A stretch of DNA of 64,000 nt from positions 2,490,416 to 2,554,415 of the forward strand of contig CP073693.1 in the NCBI GenBank assembly GCA_018228645.1, read 5' to 3'. Below, piece after piece: positions 48,645 through 59,138 of the stretch; within the stretch, counting starts at the first letter, position 1, and every line of letters begins with the position of its first letter. The notes under the pieces are model-generated. The model did not search any database and had not been told where the DNA came from. It saw nothing but the letters and a program-made list of their open reading frames with translations. The position numbers were made by a program, and so were the translations under genes. Source of the DNA: Clostridiaceae bacterium Marseille-Q4143. Its GTDB lineage: Bacteria > Bacillota > Clostridia > Lachnospirales > Lachnospiraceae.

Positions 48645-49406
48645 ATGTTAAAGGTAGCAGTATATGGAAAGGGCGGGATTGGAAAATCTACAGTAACTTC
48701 GAATCTGGCGGCGGCATTTGCCAATATGGGAAAGCGTGTCATTCAGATCGGATGTGATCCGAAAGCGGATTCTACCATCAATTTGCTTGGGGGAGAGCCT
48801 CTTCGTCCGGTGATGAATTATATGAGGGAAGAGGATGAAGAGCCGGATGAGCTGTCACAGATTTCAAAGGAGGGTTATGGGGGAATCCTCTGCATTGAGA
48901 CCGGAGGACCGACGCCGGGACTTGGCTGCGCGGGACGTGGAATTATTGCGACGTTTCAGCTTCTCGAAGATATGGAACTGTTTGAGCATTATAAACCAGA
49001 TGTGGTCTTGTATGATGTCCTGGGTGATGTGGTATGCGGCGGATTTGCAGCACCCATTCGTGAGGGATATGCGGATAAGGTTCTGATCGTTACCTCCGGG
49101 GAGAAAATGGCGCTGTATGCTGCCAACAATATTTCCAGCGCAGTCAGAAACTTCGAAGACCGCAGCTATGCCCGAGTATTTGGCATCGTGTTAAATCATA
49201 GAAATGTGGAGAATGAGAAGGAAAAGGTACAGGCATTTTCAGAAAAGATCGGAGTGCCGATCGTGGGCGAAGTGCCAAGAAGTGATGAAATTATCCACTG
49301 GGAGGAACAGGGAAAGACTGTGATAGAGGGAGATCCGACTTCGGACATCAGCAAATGTTTCCTTGATCTGGCTGCATTGTTGTGGAAAGAAGAGGAATAT
49401 GCATGA
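48645..49406 (+). CDS. NifH-like ATP-dependent reductase (nitrogenase Fe-protein homologue)
   Basis: A 253-residue Fe-protein: P-loop GKGGIGKST (about 8-16), CDPKADST, and the two conserved cluster ligands Cys95 (GLGCAGRG) and Cys131 (DVVCGGFA), which in homodimers hold one [4Fe-4S]. It would transfer electrons to a NifDK-like partner at the cost of ATP. It is shorter than true NifH (about 275-295). It ends overlapping the next start (ATGA), so electron partner and ATPase are made together. AGGAGGG lies 6 bases upstream. First gene of the operon. Confidence 0.88.
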   Translation: MLKVAVYGKGGIGKSTVTSNLAAAFANMGKRVIQIGCDPKADSTINLLGGEPLRPVMNYMREEDEEPDELSQISKEGYGGILCIETGGPTPGLGCAGRGIIATFQLLEDMELFEHYKPDVVLYDVLGDVVCGGFAAPIREGYADKVLIVTSGEKMALYAANNISSAVRNFEDRSYARVFGIVLNHRNVENEKEKVQAFSEKIGVPIVGEVPRSDEIIHWEEQGKTVIEGDPTSDISKCFLDLAALLWKEEEYA

Positions 49407-50683
49407 AACAGGAAGCCTATTTTTGTAGGGTAAAAGAGCTGAATGAACTTGGAAAAGAGAATATTCCCAAACAGCTGATTTCCCATACCCATCTGATCTA
49501 CAGCTCCCCGGCGACGCTGGCTTTTAACTCTCCGGGAGCAGAAGGATTCGGTGTGAAGCGCGCAGGTCTGGCGGTGCCGGATTCGATTATGCTGATTGTA
49601 TCTCCGGGATGCTGCGGACGCAATACTTCGGTTCTCAGCTCCATGGCGGCGTATCATGACCGGTTTTATTACCTGTTGATGGATGAGACGGATATTGTAA
49701 CGGGAAGACATTTGAAAAAGATTCCAAAGGCGGTGGCAGAGATCTGCGAAGGGCTTGAGAAGAAGCCGTCTGTTGTAATGATCTGTATTACCTGTGTGGA
49801 TGCGCTGCTCGGCACGGATATGGAACGAGTCTGTCATAAGGCAGAGGAATATGCAGGAATTCCGGTGAAGCCCTGTTATATGTATGCATTGACCAGAGAA
49901 GGCAGAAAGCCTCCCATGGTGCATGTTCGGCAGTCCATTTATTCCCTGCTGGAGCCGAAGAAGAAAAAAGGAAATGTAGTAAATTTACTGGGATATTTTT
50001 CGCCGTTGGTGGATGACTGTGAGTTGTATGAGTTACTTCACGGTGCGGGAGTGAAAACGATTCATGAGATTTCCAGATGCAGCGATTACGCAGAATATCA
50101 GACTATGGCGGAAGCAAATTTTAATCTGGTACTGCACCCGGAAGCACGTTTTGCAGCAGAGGATTTTCATGATCGGTTAAAAATTCCGTATATAGAGCTG
50201 AGAAGACTTTATCAGATTGATAAAATTGCCAGCCAATACCGTGCCTTTGGGGCGGCACTGGGTGTGGAATTTGATGATGAAGCACCGCGCAAAGAAGCGG
50301 AAGCGGCAATCACAAAATTCCGGGAAACGCATCCGGATGCATCTTTTGCTGTTGGAGAATGGATGAATGGAGATCCCTTTGAACTGGCGTTGGCACTGGC
50401 ACGGTATGGATTCCGTGTGCCGGAGATTTATGGAACCTTATCCGGTGAAAATTTTATCTATGTGAAACAGCTGGCAGTTTTAAGTCCGGAGACAAAAGTC
50501 TTCTCCAACCTGGAACCAACGATGTTGTATTATGACGGAAGCCAGTCCGGTGTCAACCTGACCATTGGAAAAGATGCCGGATATTACCATAAGGGATGTC
50601 CCAACGTGCGCTGGAACGAGGAACGGCAGCCCTTTGGCTATGCAGGAGTTCGCAGACTGTTTGAGGCATTGGCGGAGGTGTAA
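49403..50683 (+). CDS. nitrogenase component 1-like protein, first D-type subunit
   Basis: ATG 49403 overlaps the preceding TGA. The 426-residue protein belongs to the nitrogenase component 1-like oxidoreductases: Cys pair in SPGCCGR (70-71) and CITCVDALLGTD (128, 131), equivalent in position to the cluster ligands of NifD/NifK, followed by Rossmann-type domains. It pairs with the gene that follows. No FeMo-cofactor ligand pattern is evident, so the substrate is unlikely to be dinitrogen. It is paralogous to the product of 56695 (same spacing of Cys, DRF.Y and C...LG segments). Confidence 0.8.
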   Translation: MKQEAYFCRVKELNELGKENIPKQLISHTHLIYSSPATLAFNSPGAEGFGVKRAGLAVPDSIMLIVSPGCCGRNTSVLSSMAAYHDRFYYLLMDETDIVTGRHLKKIPKAVAEICEGLEKKPSVVMICITCVDALLGTDMERVCHKAEEYAGIPVKPCYMYALTREGRKPPMVHVRQSIYSLLEPKKKKGNVVNLLGYFSPLVDDCELYELLHGAGVKTIHEISRCSDYAEYQTMAEANFNLVLHPEARFAAEDFHDRLKIPYIELRRLYQIDKIASQYRAFGAALGVEFDDEAPRKEAEAAITKFRETHPDASFAVGEWMNGDPFELALALARYGFRVPEIYGTLSGENFIYVKQLAVLSPETKVFSNLEPTMLYYDGSQSGVNLTIGKDAGYYHKGCPNVRWNEERQPFGYAGVRRLFEALAEV

Positions 50684-58020: not shown

Positions 58021-59138
58021 GACAATCATATCGAATCATTCCGGTCTATACGGCAGATGTGTCCGGCGTCTGTTCCGCATTGTATGAGCTGGGTGGAATG
58101 ACCGTGATGCACGATCCTTCCGGATGCAACTCCACCTATAATACCCATGATGAGCTCCGCTGGTATGATCAGGACAGTCTGATCTTTATCTCAGGACTCA
58201 CAGAGATCGATGCGGTTATGGGAAATGACCGGAAATTTATCAATGATATTACGTATACTGCCAGTGAACTGCATCCGGCATTTATTGCACTGGCAGGTTC
58301 GCCGATTCCATTTTTGAATGGGACAGACTTTCCAGCCATTGCACGGATCATAGAAAAGAAAACCGGAATCCCGACGTTTTTTGTACCCACCAACGGGATG
58401 CATGATTATGTATATGGAGCTGGAATCGCGCTGGAAAAAATCGCCAGTCGGTTTGTCAAAGCACCGGATTGGCAGAAGAAACGAGATGTTTCTATGCGCA
58501 GTGTCAATCTCCTGGGTGTGACGCCTCTGGATTTCGGACCACAGGAAAATGTAGAATTATTAAAAGAAAATCTGAAAGCACATGGATGGGACGTATTCTC
58601 TACATGGGCCATGGGAGACGATCTCAAAACGTTGCAAATGTCAGGTGAGGCGGATATCAATCTGGTGGTATCCGCAGTGGGACTGTGGGCAGCGAAGGTC
58701 CTTTGGGAAAAATATCACATCCCATATGTGATCGGAACGCCGAATCAATGGTTAGCGGAAGACATTTCCCGTGCACTGGAACATACAGTTACGCAGAAGA
58801 CCGATTCTGTGACGGTATATTTGCAGAACCGCATGCAGCAGGAGGCGGAGATTGCGCTGATTGGAGAGCCAGTCACCATGGGCTCACTGGCAGCAGGAAT
58901 CGAAAAACAATATGGACGTGCGGCCCGTGTTCTGTGCCCGTTAAAAGAATGTGATACTTTGCTTGGACAGAAAGATGCAGTGGTGCTCGGAGAAGAAGCA
59001 ATGGAAGAGGCACTGAAAAGTGCCAAAATCATTGTGGCGGATCCGCTGTATCGTCCGATCTGCCCAAAAGACAGCACTTTTTATGAACTTCCGCATGTGG
59101 CATTTTCGGGAAGAATCTATTTCCATAATCTCCAGTAG
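58017..59138 (+). CDS. nitrogenase component 1-like protein, second K-type subunit
   Basis: ATG 58017 overlaps the preceding TGA. The 373-residue protein is collinear with the product of 50688: GVCSALYELGGMTVMHDPSG, then CNSTYN, FISGLTEIDAVMGNDRKF and GSPIPFLNGTD. Like its paralogue it lacks the Cys before the GTD motif. Its 3' end overlaps the convergent exporter gene by 22 bases. Likely partner of the preceding D-type protein. Confidence 0.78.
   Translation: MRQSYRIIPVYTADVSGVCSALYELGGMTVMHDPSGCNSTYNTHDELRWYDQDSLIFISGLTEIDAVMGNDRKFINDITYTASELHPAFIALAGSPIPFLNGTDFPAIARIIEKKTGIPTFFVPTNGMHDYVYGAGIALEKIASRFVKAPDWQKKRDVSMRSVNLLGVTPLDFGPQENVELLKENLKAHGWDVFSTWAMGDDLKTLQMSGEADINLVVSAVGLWAAKVLWEKYHIPYVIGTPNQWLAEDISRALEHTVTQKTDSVTVYLQNRMQQEAEIALIGEPVTMGSLAAGIEKQYGRAARVLCPLKECDTLLGQKDAVVLGEEAMEEALKSAKIIVADPLYRPICPKDSTFYELPHVAFSGRIYFHNLQ

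Follow-up and report, generated by a model that had tools for sequence, protein, structure and literature searches.

A nitrogenase-like and HypFCDE operon that accompanies loss of HydG and probably supplies ligands for [FeFe]-hydrogenase maturation

In the maturation of [FeFe]-hydrogenases, HydG makes CO and cyanide (CN) from tyrosine, and HydE and HydF assemble the [2Fe] unit and deliver it; in the maturation of [NiFe]-hydrogenases, HypF and HypE make thiocyanate from carbamoyl phosphate, and HypCD hold an iron with CN and CO. The HypCD product is Fe(CN)2(CO) and the HydG product Fe(CO)2(CN), and the origin of CO in the [NiFe]-hydrogenases of anaerobes is an open question. Nitrogenases, for their part, are able to reduce CO2 to CO. 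To our knowledge, no dedicated source of the [FeFe]-hydrogenase CO and CN ligands has been described other than tyrosine cleavage by HydG. All five ligands derive from tyrosine according to the title of PMC3105041, and the consulted portion of PMC4355364 reports that deletion of hydG in Clostridium thermocellum abolished all [FeFe] activity. Here we describe an operon in a 64,000-nucleotide stretch of the Clostridiaceae bacterium Marseille-Q4143 genome (contig CP073693.1, positions 2,490,416 to 2,554,415; the window) that joins nitrogenase-like genes—a NifH-like ATPase (H1) and two component-1-like pairs (D1-K1 and D2-K2)—to hypF, hypC, hypD, hypE, and a TM1266-family gene, with a second nifH (H2) ahead of D2 at many related loci. 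The operon is probably the ligand-making half of a HydG-independent H-cluster pathway for [FeFe]-hydrogenase.

Comparison with the described systems places the locus between them. As in HydEFG maturation, operon carriers retain HydE, HydF, and a TM1266-family gene, often adjacent; unlike that system, they lack HydG, the tyrosine lyase that is its source of CO and CN, and hold nitrogenase-like and Hyp genes in its place. As in [NiFe]-hydrogenase maturation, all four operon Hyp proteins score above their family cut-offs and keep the known motifs, whereas their genes are joined to NifHDK-like genes and no large subunit accompanies them in 16 of the 17 carriers tested with PF00374 or in any of 29 with PF00346. 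A published parallel comes from Clostridium acetogens, for which the consulted part of PMC9431212 lists HydE, HydF, and HypCDEF with HydG detected in three strains only, and whose authors wonder about unidentified mechanisms of ligand incorporation; there, the Hyp genes are taken as [NiFe] maturation genes, and that part draws no nitrogenase-like link. Literature searches, with most subscription papers and preprints outside their scope, returned no description of nitrogenase-like genes tied to HydG loss or to a HypF operon, and the main text of PMC12578642, on gut [FeFe]-hydrogenases, is without the terms HydG, HydE, maturase, and maturation.

Carriage of the operon coincides with loss of HydG. 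The first set of 80 genomes comprised 28 carriers from the genome_contigs collection and 52 of 61 relatives; among the latter, G026 is itself a carrier, which brings the carriers to 29. HydG exceeded its cut-off in 0/29 carriers vs. 27/51 other genomes, and HydF in 55/80 (26/29 carriers, 29/51 others). Among HydF-positive genomes, HydG was present in 0/26 carriers vs. 26/29 others (Fisher P = 1e-12, with kinship ignored here and in the tests below). The [FeFe] catalytic domain (PF02906) was found in all 29 carriers, weakly in G065 and G087.

The same pattern holds in a class sample of 393 same-class genomes, requested at >=90% completeness (the 28 genome_contigs genomes came without stated completeness). 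D1 homologs above 580 bits occur in 12/393 genomes, all 12 also with D2 (420 to 680 bits), and six further genomes have a strong D2 (587 to 642 bits) without D1. HydG, scored on the best four candidates at most per genome, is absent from all 12 D1 carriers and all six D2-only genomes and present in 241/375 others (P = 2e-8). HydF, scored on the best 20 candidates at most, was searched in 80 of the 393: the 18 strong-D2 genomes, six genomes with distant Nfl-like D genes, and 56 of the 132 other HydG-negative genomes, taken at even steps. It was found in 12/12 D1 carriers, 6/6 D2-only genomes, 4/6 Nfl-like genomes, and 3/56 HydG-negative genomes without D2 (18/18 strong-D2 vs. 3/56, P = 2e-14), and D2 lies within 5 kb of HydF in 10 of the 18 strong-D2 genomes. 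The four HydF-positive Nfl-like genomes are exactly those with HydG. An initial treatment of distant D1-like genes (142 to 238 bits) as a single group was abandoned: The D2 search split their genomes into the six HydG-less ones (D2 587 to 642 bits) and the six Nfl-like ones (D2 202 to 342 bits).

Within single genera, the operon and HydG alternate. Among the members of genus g116 listed, six carriers (G139, G207, G226, G260, G337, and G352) are all HydG-negative, whereas four noncarriers (G162, G293, G367, and G440) have HydG and lack D1 and D2; in G309, HydG, HydF, and D2 are all missing. Gene order is TM1266-HydE-HydG-HydF in G162; in G352, hypC-hypD-hypE-TM1266-D2-K2-HydF-HydE lie on one contig and D1 on another. 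Genus g187 includes two HydG-negative carriers (G266 and G359) and one genome with HydG (G374).

ThiH was considered as a substitute for HydG and set aside: The HydG-profile matches of 173 to 218 bits, which look like ThiH, are shared by genomes that have true HydG, and in carriers such as G068, G069, G070, G071, G074, and G077 the matches are all weaker and HydE-like (both labels were read from scores and lengths, not from profiles of their own). Separately, seven genomes of family f1 (G001, G004, G009, G018, G020, G023, and G033; loci L069–L075, L079, L080, and L090) have HydA above the TIGR02512 cut-off, with HydF and HydG not above theirs; all three H-cluster motifs are present by pattern in 5/7, making this a case of HydA without known maturases.

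The gene order recurs widely. A D1 scan of the genome_contigs set gave 28 loci, titled Roseburia faecis, Eubacterium ramulus, Blautia, Anaerostipes, Ruminococcus, and other Clostridia or Lachnospiraceae, together with metagenome-assembled genomes (MAGs) labeled Lentisphaeria, Spirochaetaceae, and Selenomonas, so that the order spans three labeled phyla. Because hypF adjoins D1/K1 in 27/28 loci, with the remaining one (L031) stopping at a contig edge within K1, the arrangement lies far beyond chance. HypD was found in all 28 carriers and in G026, as a single match each except in G081, which has two partial matches on two contigs. A single branch separates 37 operon HypD sequences from six other HypD (support 95/98), subject to a long-branch warning.

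The operon also lies close to [FeFe]-hydrogenase maturation genes. In the 29 operon loci (the 28 D1 loci plus L066), with HydE, HydF, and TM1266 assigned by BLAST to references and the HydE and HydF assignments checked with TIGR03956 and TIGR03918 on five examples, HydE or HydF lies within the fetched stretch in 18/29, and HydE, HydF, or TM1266 in 25/29. Four loci have none of them: three short contigs (L031, L032, and L044) and L041, a full stretch. HydE itself lies in 11/29, a count of the stretches only and not of a genome-wide search with its own profile. Where H2-D2-K2 lies upstream of H1, a GTPase gene and a radical S-adenosylmethionine gene are often present too; at L034, these are HydF (TIGR03918, 551.7 bits, cut-off 325.55) and HydE (TIGR03956, 561.9 bits, cut-off 254.6). 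L066 reads consecutively H1-D1-K1-hypF-hypC-hypD-hypE-TM1266-H2-D2-K2-HydF. At L029, an aspartate ammonia-lyase-like gene (509 bits, cut-off 510) stands between hydF and hydE; such a gene is a described companion in hyd operons in the consulted part of PMC11736057.

Strong-D2 genomes of the class sample take two forms: 12 of the 18 carry D1 and hyp, and six carry a FecCD-type importer instead. At the six D2-only loci (L162, L163, L164, L222, L224, and L226), genes for a binding protein, a FecCD-like permease, and an ATPase adjoin H2-D2-K2 (families PF01497 and PF01032 at L162), and no hyp gene was seen beside H2-D2-K2 in the stretches read, the remainder of these genomes not being searched. 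Because these genomes have the importer and no D1-hyp module in those stretches, H2-D2-K2 looks like a core common to both forms, fed by H1-D1-K1-HypFCDE in one and by the importer in the other; and since the importer occupies the module's place, an iron-ligand precursor or building block may be imported in the six. An earlier note on the window, made from its sequence, had named frequent occurrence of the nitrogenase-like genes apart from hyp as part of what would speak against its proposal. Such separation is found for D2, and the genes concerned still track HydF and the absence of HydG. At L163 and L164, the importer-ATPase reading frame also matches TM1266 (37 to 38%), perhaps a fusion.

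We propose that HypFCDE and the nitrogenase-like reductases would jointly supply to HydE and HydF the Fe–CO–CN unit that is the product of HydG elsewhere, and we infer the substrates, products, and order of the steps as follows. By known chemistry, and with the relevant motifs intact, HypF and HypE would convert carbamoyl phosphate to thiocyanate on the terminal Cys of HypE, and HypC and HypD would place CN on iron. H1-D1-K1, encoded beside hypF, might then make CO with ATP-driven low-potential electrons on or near the HypCD iron, most simply from CO2, and H2-D2-K2 might reduce or remodel the product into a mononuclear Fe–CO–CN synthon acceptable to HydE; HydE and HydF would complete the [2Fe] subcluster as usual. 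Entry would be at HydE, which is retained in loci read, with the reductases giving CO, electrons, or both. The specific version of a third Fe–CO–CN route—HypFE cyanide from carbamoyl phosphate, iron loading by HypCD, CO from NifEN-like scaffold reductases, and a second form importing a precursor via FecCD—is in our judgment evenly balanced between right and wrong. One suggestion of the earlier note, a reductase acting on the Hyp product, comes close to this proposal; the link to [FeFe]-hydrogenase had not been seen.

Several observations weigh against this proposal. Hyp-made cyanide is not general, because six HydG-less genomes lack D1 and show no hyp gene in the stretches read. To match the HydG-type product, Fe(CO)2(CN), the HypCD-type product, Fe(CN)2(CO), would have to change ligands. 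Blautia sp. MSJ-9 (G065; L035, L112) carries a complete operon, but HydF does not exceed its cut-off there, the HydG-profile search gave nothing HydE-like, and the only PF02906 protein is weak; carriers G069 and G088 are also without HydF above cut-off. HydF occurs without HydG or D2 in G053 (L098), G325 (L220), and G445 (L221), and without HydG or a D1 match in G012 and G044, which implies either other routes or a divergent HydG; G053, which also has HydE and TM1266, may with G325 and G445 represent a further HydG-less route. A [NiFe]-hydrogenase is present in the Selenomonas MAG (L041/G073), whose sole HypD lies in the operon of that enzyme, separate from the D1 locus. The HydE, HydF, and HydG counts describe the genomes of relatives, the window's own genome not being among them; the class-sample HydG scores cover at most four candidates per genome and the HydF scores of both sets at most 20, and the Fisher tests take no account of kinship. 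Last, HydE and HydF without HydG activate HydA to ~1% in vitro with trace CO/CN in the consulted part of PMC9431212, so a cell that loses HydG does not necessarily require a dedicated substitute.

That in vitro activation also lends some credit to the foremost rival, which we regard as improbable though the least so of four: that the complexes aid [FeFe]-hydrogenase in another way—through the dithiolate bridge, redox repair, or electron supply—with CO and CN coming from free pools or an unseen source. The D2-only genomes, which manage without the D1-hyp module in the stretches read, and the genomes with HydF and neither HydG nor D2 (G053, G325, and G445) fit it too. Against it, HypE/F chemistry yields cyanide, precisely what a HydG-less cell is short of, and HydG is found in 0/18 D2 genomes.

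D1, K1, D2, and K2 all exceed the Pfam gathering score of PF00148, and all fall below the cut-off of every named nitrogenase-type NCBIfam model that they match; D1 reaches 34 bits against the NifD model (cut-off 654). H1 is likewise below curated cut-offs (bits/cut-off: NifH 314/394, CfbC 307/402, BchL 212/345, BchX 198/331). The predicted fold of D1, the one protein covered by the fold search (K1, D2, and K2 were not), matches structures of nitrogenase component 1, NifEN, methylthio-alkane reductase, and ChlNB (Foldseek E 1.9e-17). Among NCBIfam models, D1 scores best with NifE, which is also the best match among solved sequences for both the D1 and D2 profiles and, for D2, the sole named molecule; the likeness is thus to NifEN, an assembly scaffold and not a catalytic precedent. 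In the profile alignments, the Cys of the NifE cofactor segment faces n in D1 and l in D2, a difference from NifEN as well. Cys residues aligned to those of NifE are retained at D1 C70 and C130 and at D2 C119, and D2 C59 is conserved. We take the retained residues to be interface ligands and the missing one to be the nitrogenase cofactor ligand, presumably NifD C275/NifE C250. Because the NifE-aligned Cys are kept and the cofactor Cys is missing, a role in electron transfer or assembly would suit D1 and D2 better than that of a dinitrogenase. The family is large: One D1 homolog cluster alone (P0002) represents 5,228 member sequences.

These features bear on the first idea of the earlier note, an undescribed nitrogenase-like enzyme whose own catalytic cofactor would be an Fe(CN)2CO unit from the Hyp proteins and which would reduce an external substrate. 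The constant succession of K1 and hypF (27/28 loci) and the separate grouping of operon HypD agree with it; the absence of the NifD/NifE cofactor Cys from the D1 and D2 profile alignments does not, nor does the finding that 6/18 genomes keep H2-D2-K2 but have no D1 and, in the stretches read, no hyp. It leaves unexplained the HydF/HydG pattern and the exchange for HydG within a genus, the genes tracking HydE/HydF and the absence of HydG instead. We therefore disfavor this idea and judge it unlikely, somewhat more so than the preceding alternative.

A dinitrogenase or group-IV-like enzyme of the Mar, Isr, or Cfb type, acting on sulfur or tetrapyrrole substrates and sharing with hydrogenase merely a lifestyle, is very unlikely. 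The operon does have NifHDK-type families and fold, and it resembles group IV (CfbCD, MarHDK, IsrHDK) and clostridial Nfl in combining a NifH-like ATPase with component-1-like D/K pairs. It differs in having two D/K sets linked to HydE/HydF/HypFCDE and in H1 and D1 falling under every curated NCBIfam cut-off, with Mar and Isr not among the matches; scores are far under the NifD, NifE, CfbC, CfbD, and Bch cut-offs, the cofactor Cys is missing, and HydE or HydF is nearby in 18/29 loci. The distant Nfl-like NifHDK clusters (L157, L159, L160, and L161) are followed by ATP-binding cassette (ABC)-transporter-like genes, with no HydE adjoining.

The [NiFe]-hydrogenase large subunit is rare among carriers. 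A profile search for the group-4 form (PF00346) was positive in 0/29 carriers and, as expected of a working profile, in 4/7 other genomes with a HypD match; the form of groups 1 to 3 (PF00374) was found in 1/17 carriers tested, the Selenomonas MAG, the other 12 and the 12 class-sample carriers being outside this test. HypD encoded outside the D1 operon adjoins [NiFe] subunits in several of the loci read (PF00346 in L058, L059, and L061; PF00374 in L067; judged from leading residues in L063 and L064). The coupling of nitrogenase-like reductase and HypFCDE genes reported in the earlier note thus holds up, mostly without [NiFe]-hydrogenase, and the universal presence of that enzyme in carriers, which the note had set against its proposal, is not what the genomes show. 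That the operon matures a [NiFe]-hydrogenase beside fortuitous nitrogenase-like neighbors is therefore hardly credible: its four hyp genes are bona fide family members and one carrier has the enzyme, but these subunit counts and a gene order repeated across three labeled phyla speak against it.

Natural replacement of HydG, if true, would explain how gut anaerobes that lack the enzyme might form H2 (the carriers are gut and rumen bacteria), would add cofactor assembly to the roles of nitrogenase-like proteins, and would be relevant to the origin of CO in the [NiFe]-hydrogenases of anaerobes. A third Fe–CO–CN route, if true, would be a hybrid of the nitrogenase, [NiFe]-hydrogenase, and [FeFe]-hydrogenase assembly lines. 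On the same reading, "nifH" or "nitrogenase" labels in gut metagenomes could denote hydrogenase assembly.

In the window, the operon comprises ten plus-strand genes between 48645 and 59138 with small or no intergenic space, by the list of open reading frames and their translations (Table 1). The genes named in the earlier note are real, intact, and placed as it described, as judged by this list, NCBIfam, Pfam, and motifs; the tenth, the TM1266-family gene, had been overlooked. Overlaps amount to 4 bases for nifH/D1, hypC/hypD, and TM1266/D2 and 25 for D2/K2, and the start codons of D1 and K1 are ATG at 49403 and 50688. H1 has the P-loop GKGGIGKS and the cluster Cys pair C95 and C131. Residues conserved in alignments of relatives are C69/C70, C127, C130, C157, and H395 in D1 (numbering from residue 2); C33/C38/C43 in K1 (numbering begins one residue ahead of the ATG); C55/C59, C119, H121, C147, C214, C437, and C440 in D2; and C26, H39, C44, and H51 in K2. 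HypD keeps EVCGTHTHE, GPGCPVC, and the C-terminal four-Cys motif, and we take the final Cys of the HypE terminus PRIC to be the thiocyanate carrier. No HypA- or HypB-like gene is among the ten by family profiles, carrier genomes not being searched for either. The second D/K pair is likewise genuine, and its own nifH has gone: Close relatives L018 and L035 have H2 between TM1266 and D2, and the window shows a clean in-frame deletion in which a start equal to the H2 start of those relatives, overlapped by the TM1266 stop, is fused to D2.

Table 1. Operon features in the window, with profile scores in bits; pLDDT, predicted local distance difference test
Feature	Coordinates	Strand	Evidence
H1, NifH-like ATPase, 253 aa	48645..49406	+	PF00142 300 bits; TIGR01287 314 bits, below cut-off 394
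D1, nitrogenase component-1-like, 426 aa	49403..50683	+	PF00148 109 bits; pLDDT 84 model
K1, nitrogenase component-1-like partner, 348 aa	50688..51734	+	PF00148 64.6 bits
hypF, carbamoyltransferase	51770..54097	+	TIGR00143 763.5 bits, cut-off 466.1
hypC	54101..54313	+	TIGR00074 63.2 bits, cut-off 48; N-terminal MCVG
hypD	54310..55338	+	TIGR00075 383.6 bits, cut-off 192.8
hypE	55398..56405	+	TIGR02124 425.9 bits, cut-off 251.6; C-terminus PRIC
TM1266-family gene ("iron-only hydrogenase system putative regulator")	56423..56698	+	TIGR03959 112.7 bits, cut-off 60.8; PF21699 108 bits
Scar of lost H2, approximate	56695..56710	+	Comparison with L018 and L035
D2, second nitrogenase component-1-like protein, 441 aa	56695..58020	+	PF00148 44.9 bits; pLDDT 78 model
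K2, D2 partner, 380 aa	57996..59138	+	PF00148 83.7 bits

Elsewhere in the window, a tRNA search found no tRNA genes, and the sole Rfam match is a pemK RNA motif (RF02913) at 41601–41670, barely above its gathering score. The left part resembles an integrative element ending near 44 kb, with a large DUF3849/helicase/Eco57I-like methylase gene at 891–8507 and a serine recombinase at 42007–43809. Immediately downstream of the operon, on the minus strand at 59117–61261, lies a C39-peptidase ABC transporter of the bacteriocin-export type. The G+C content of the operon is 0.49, vs. 0.39 on either side, which may reflect horizontal acquisition.

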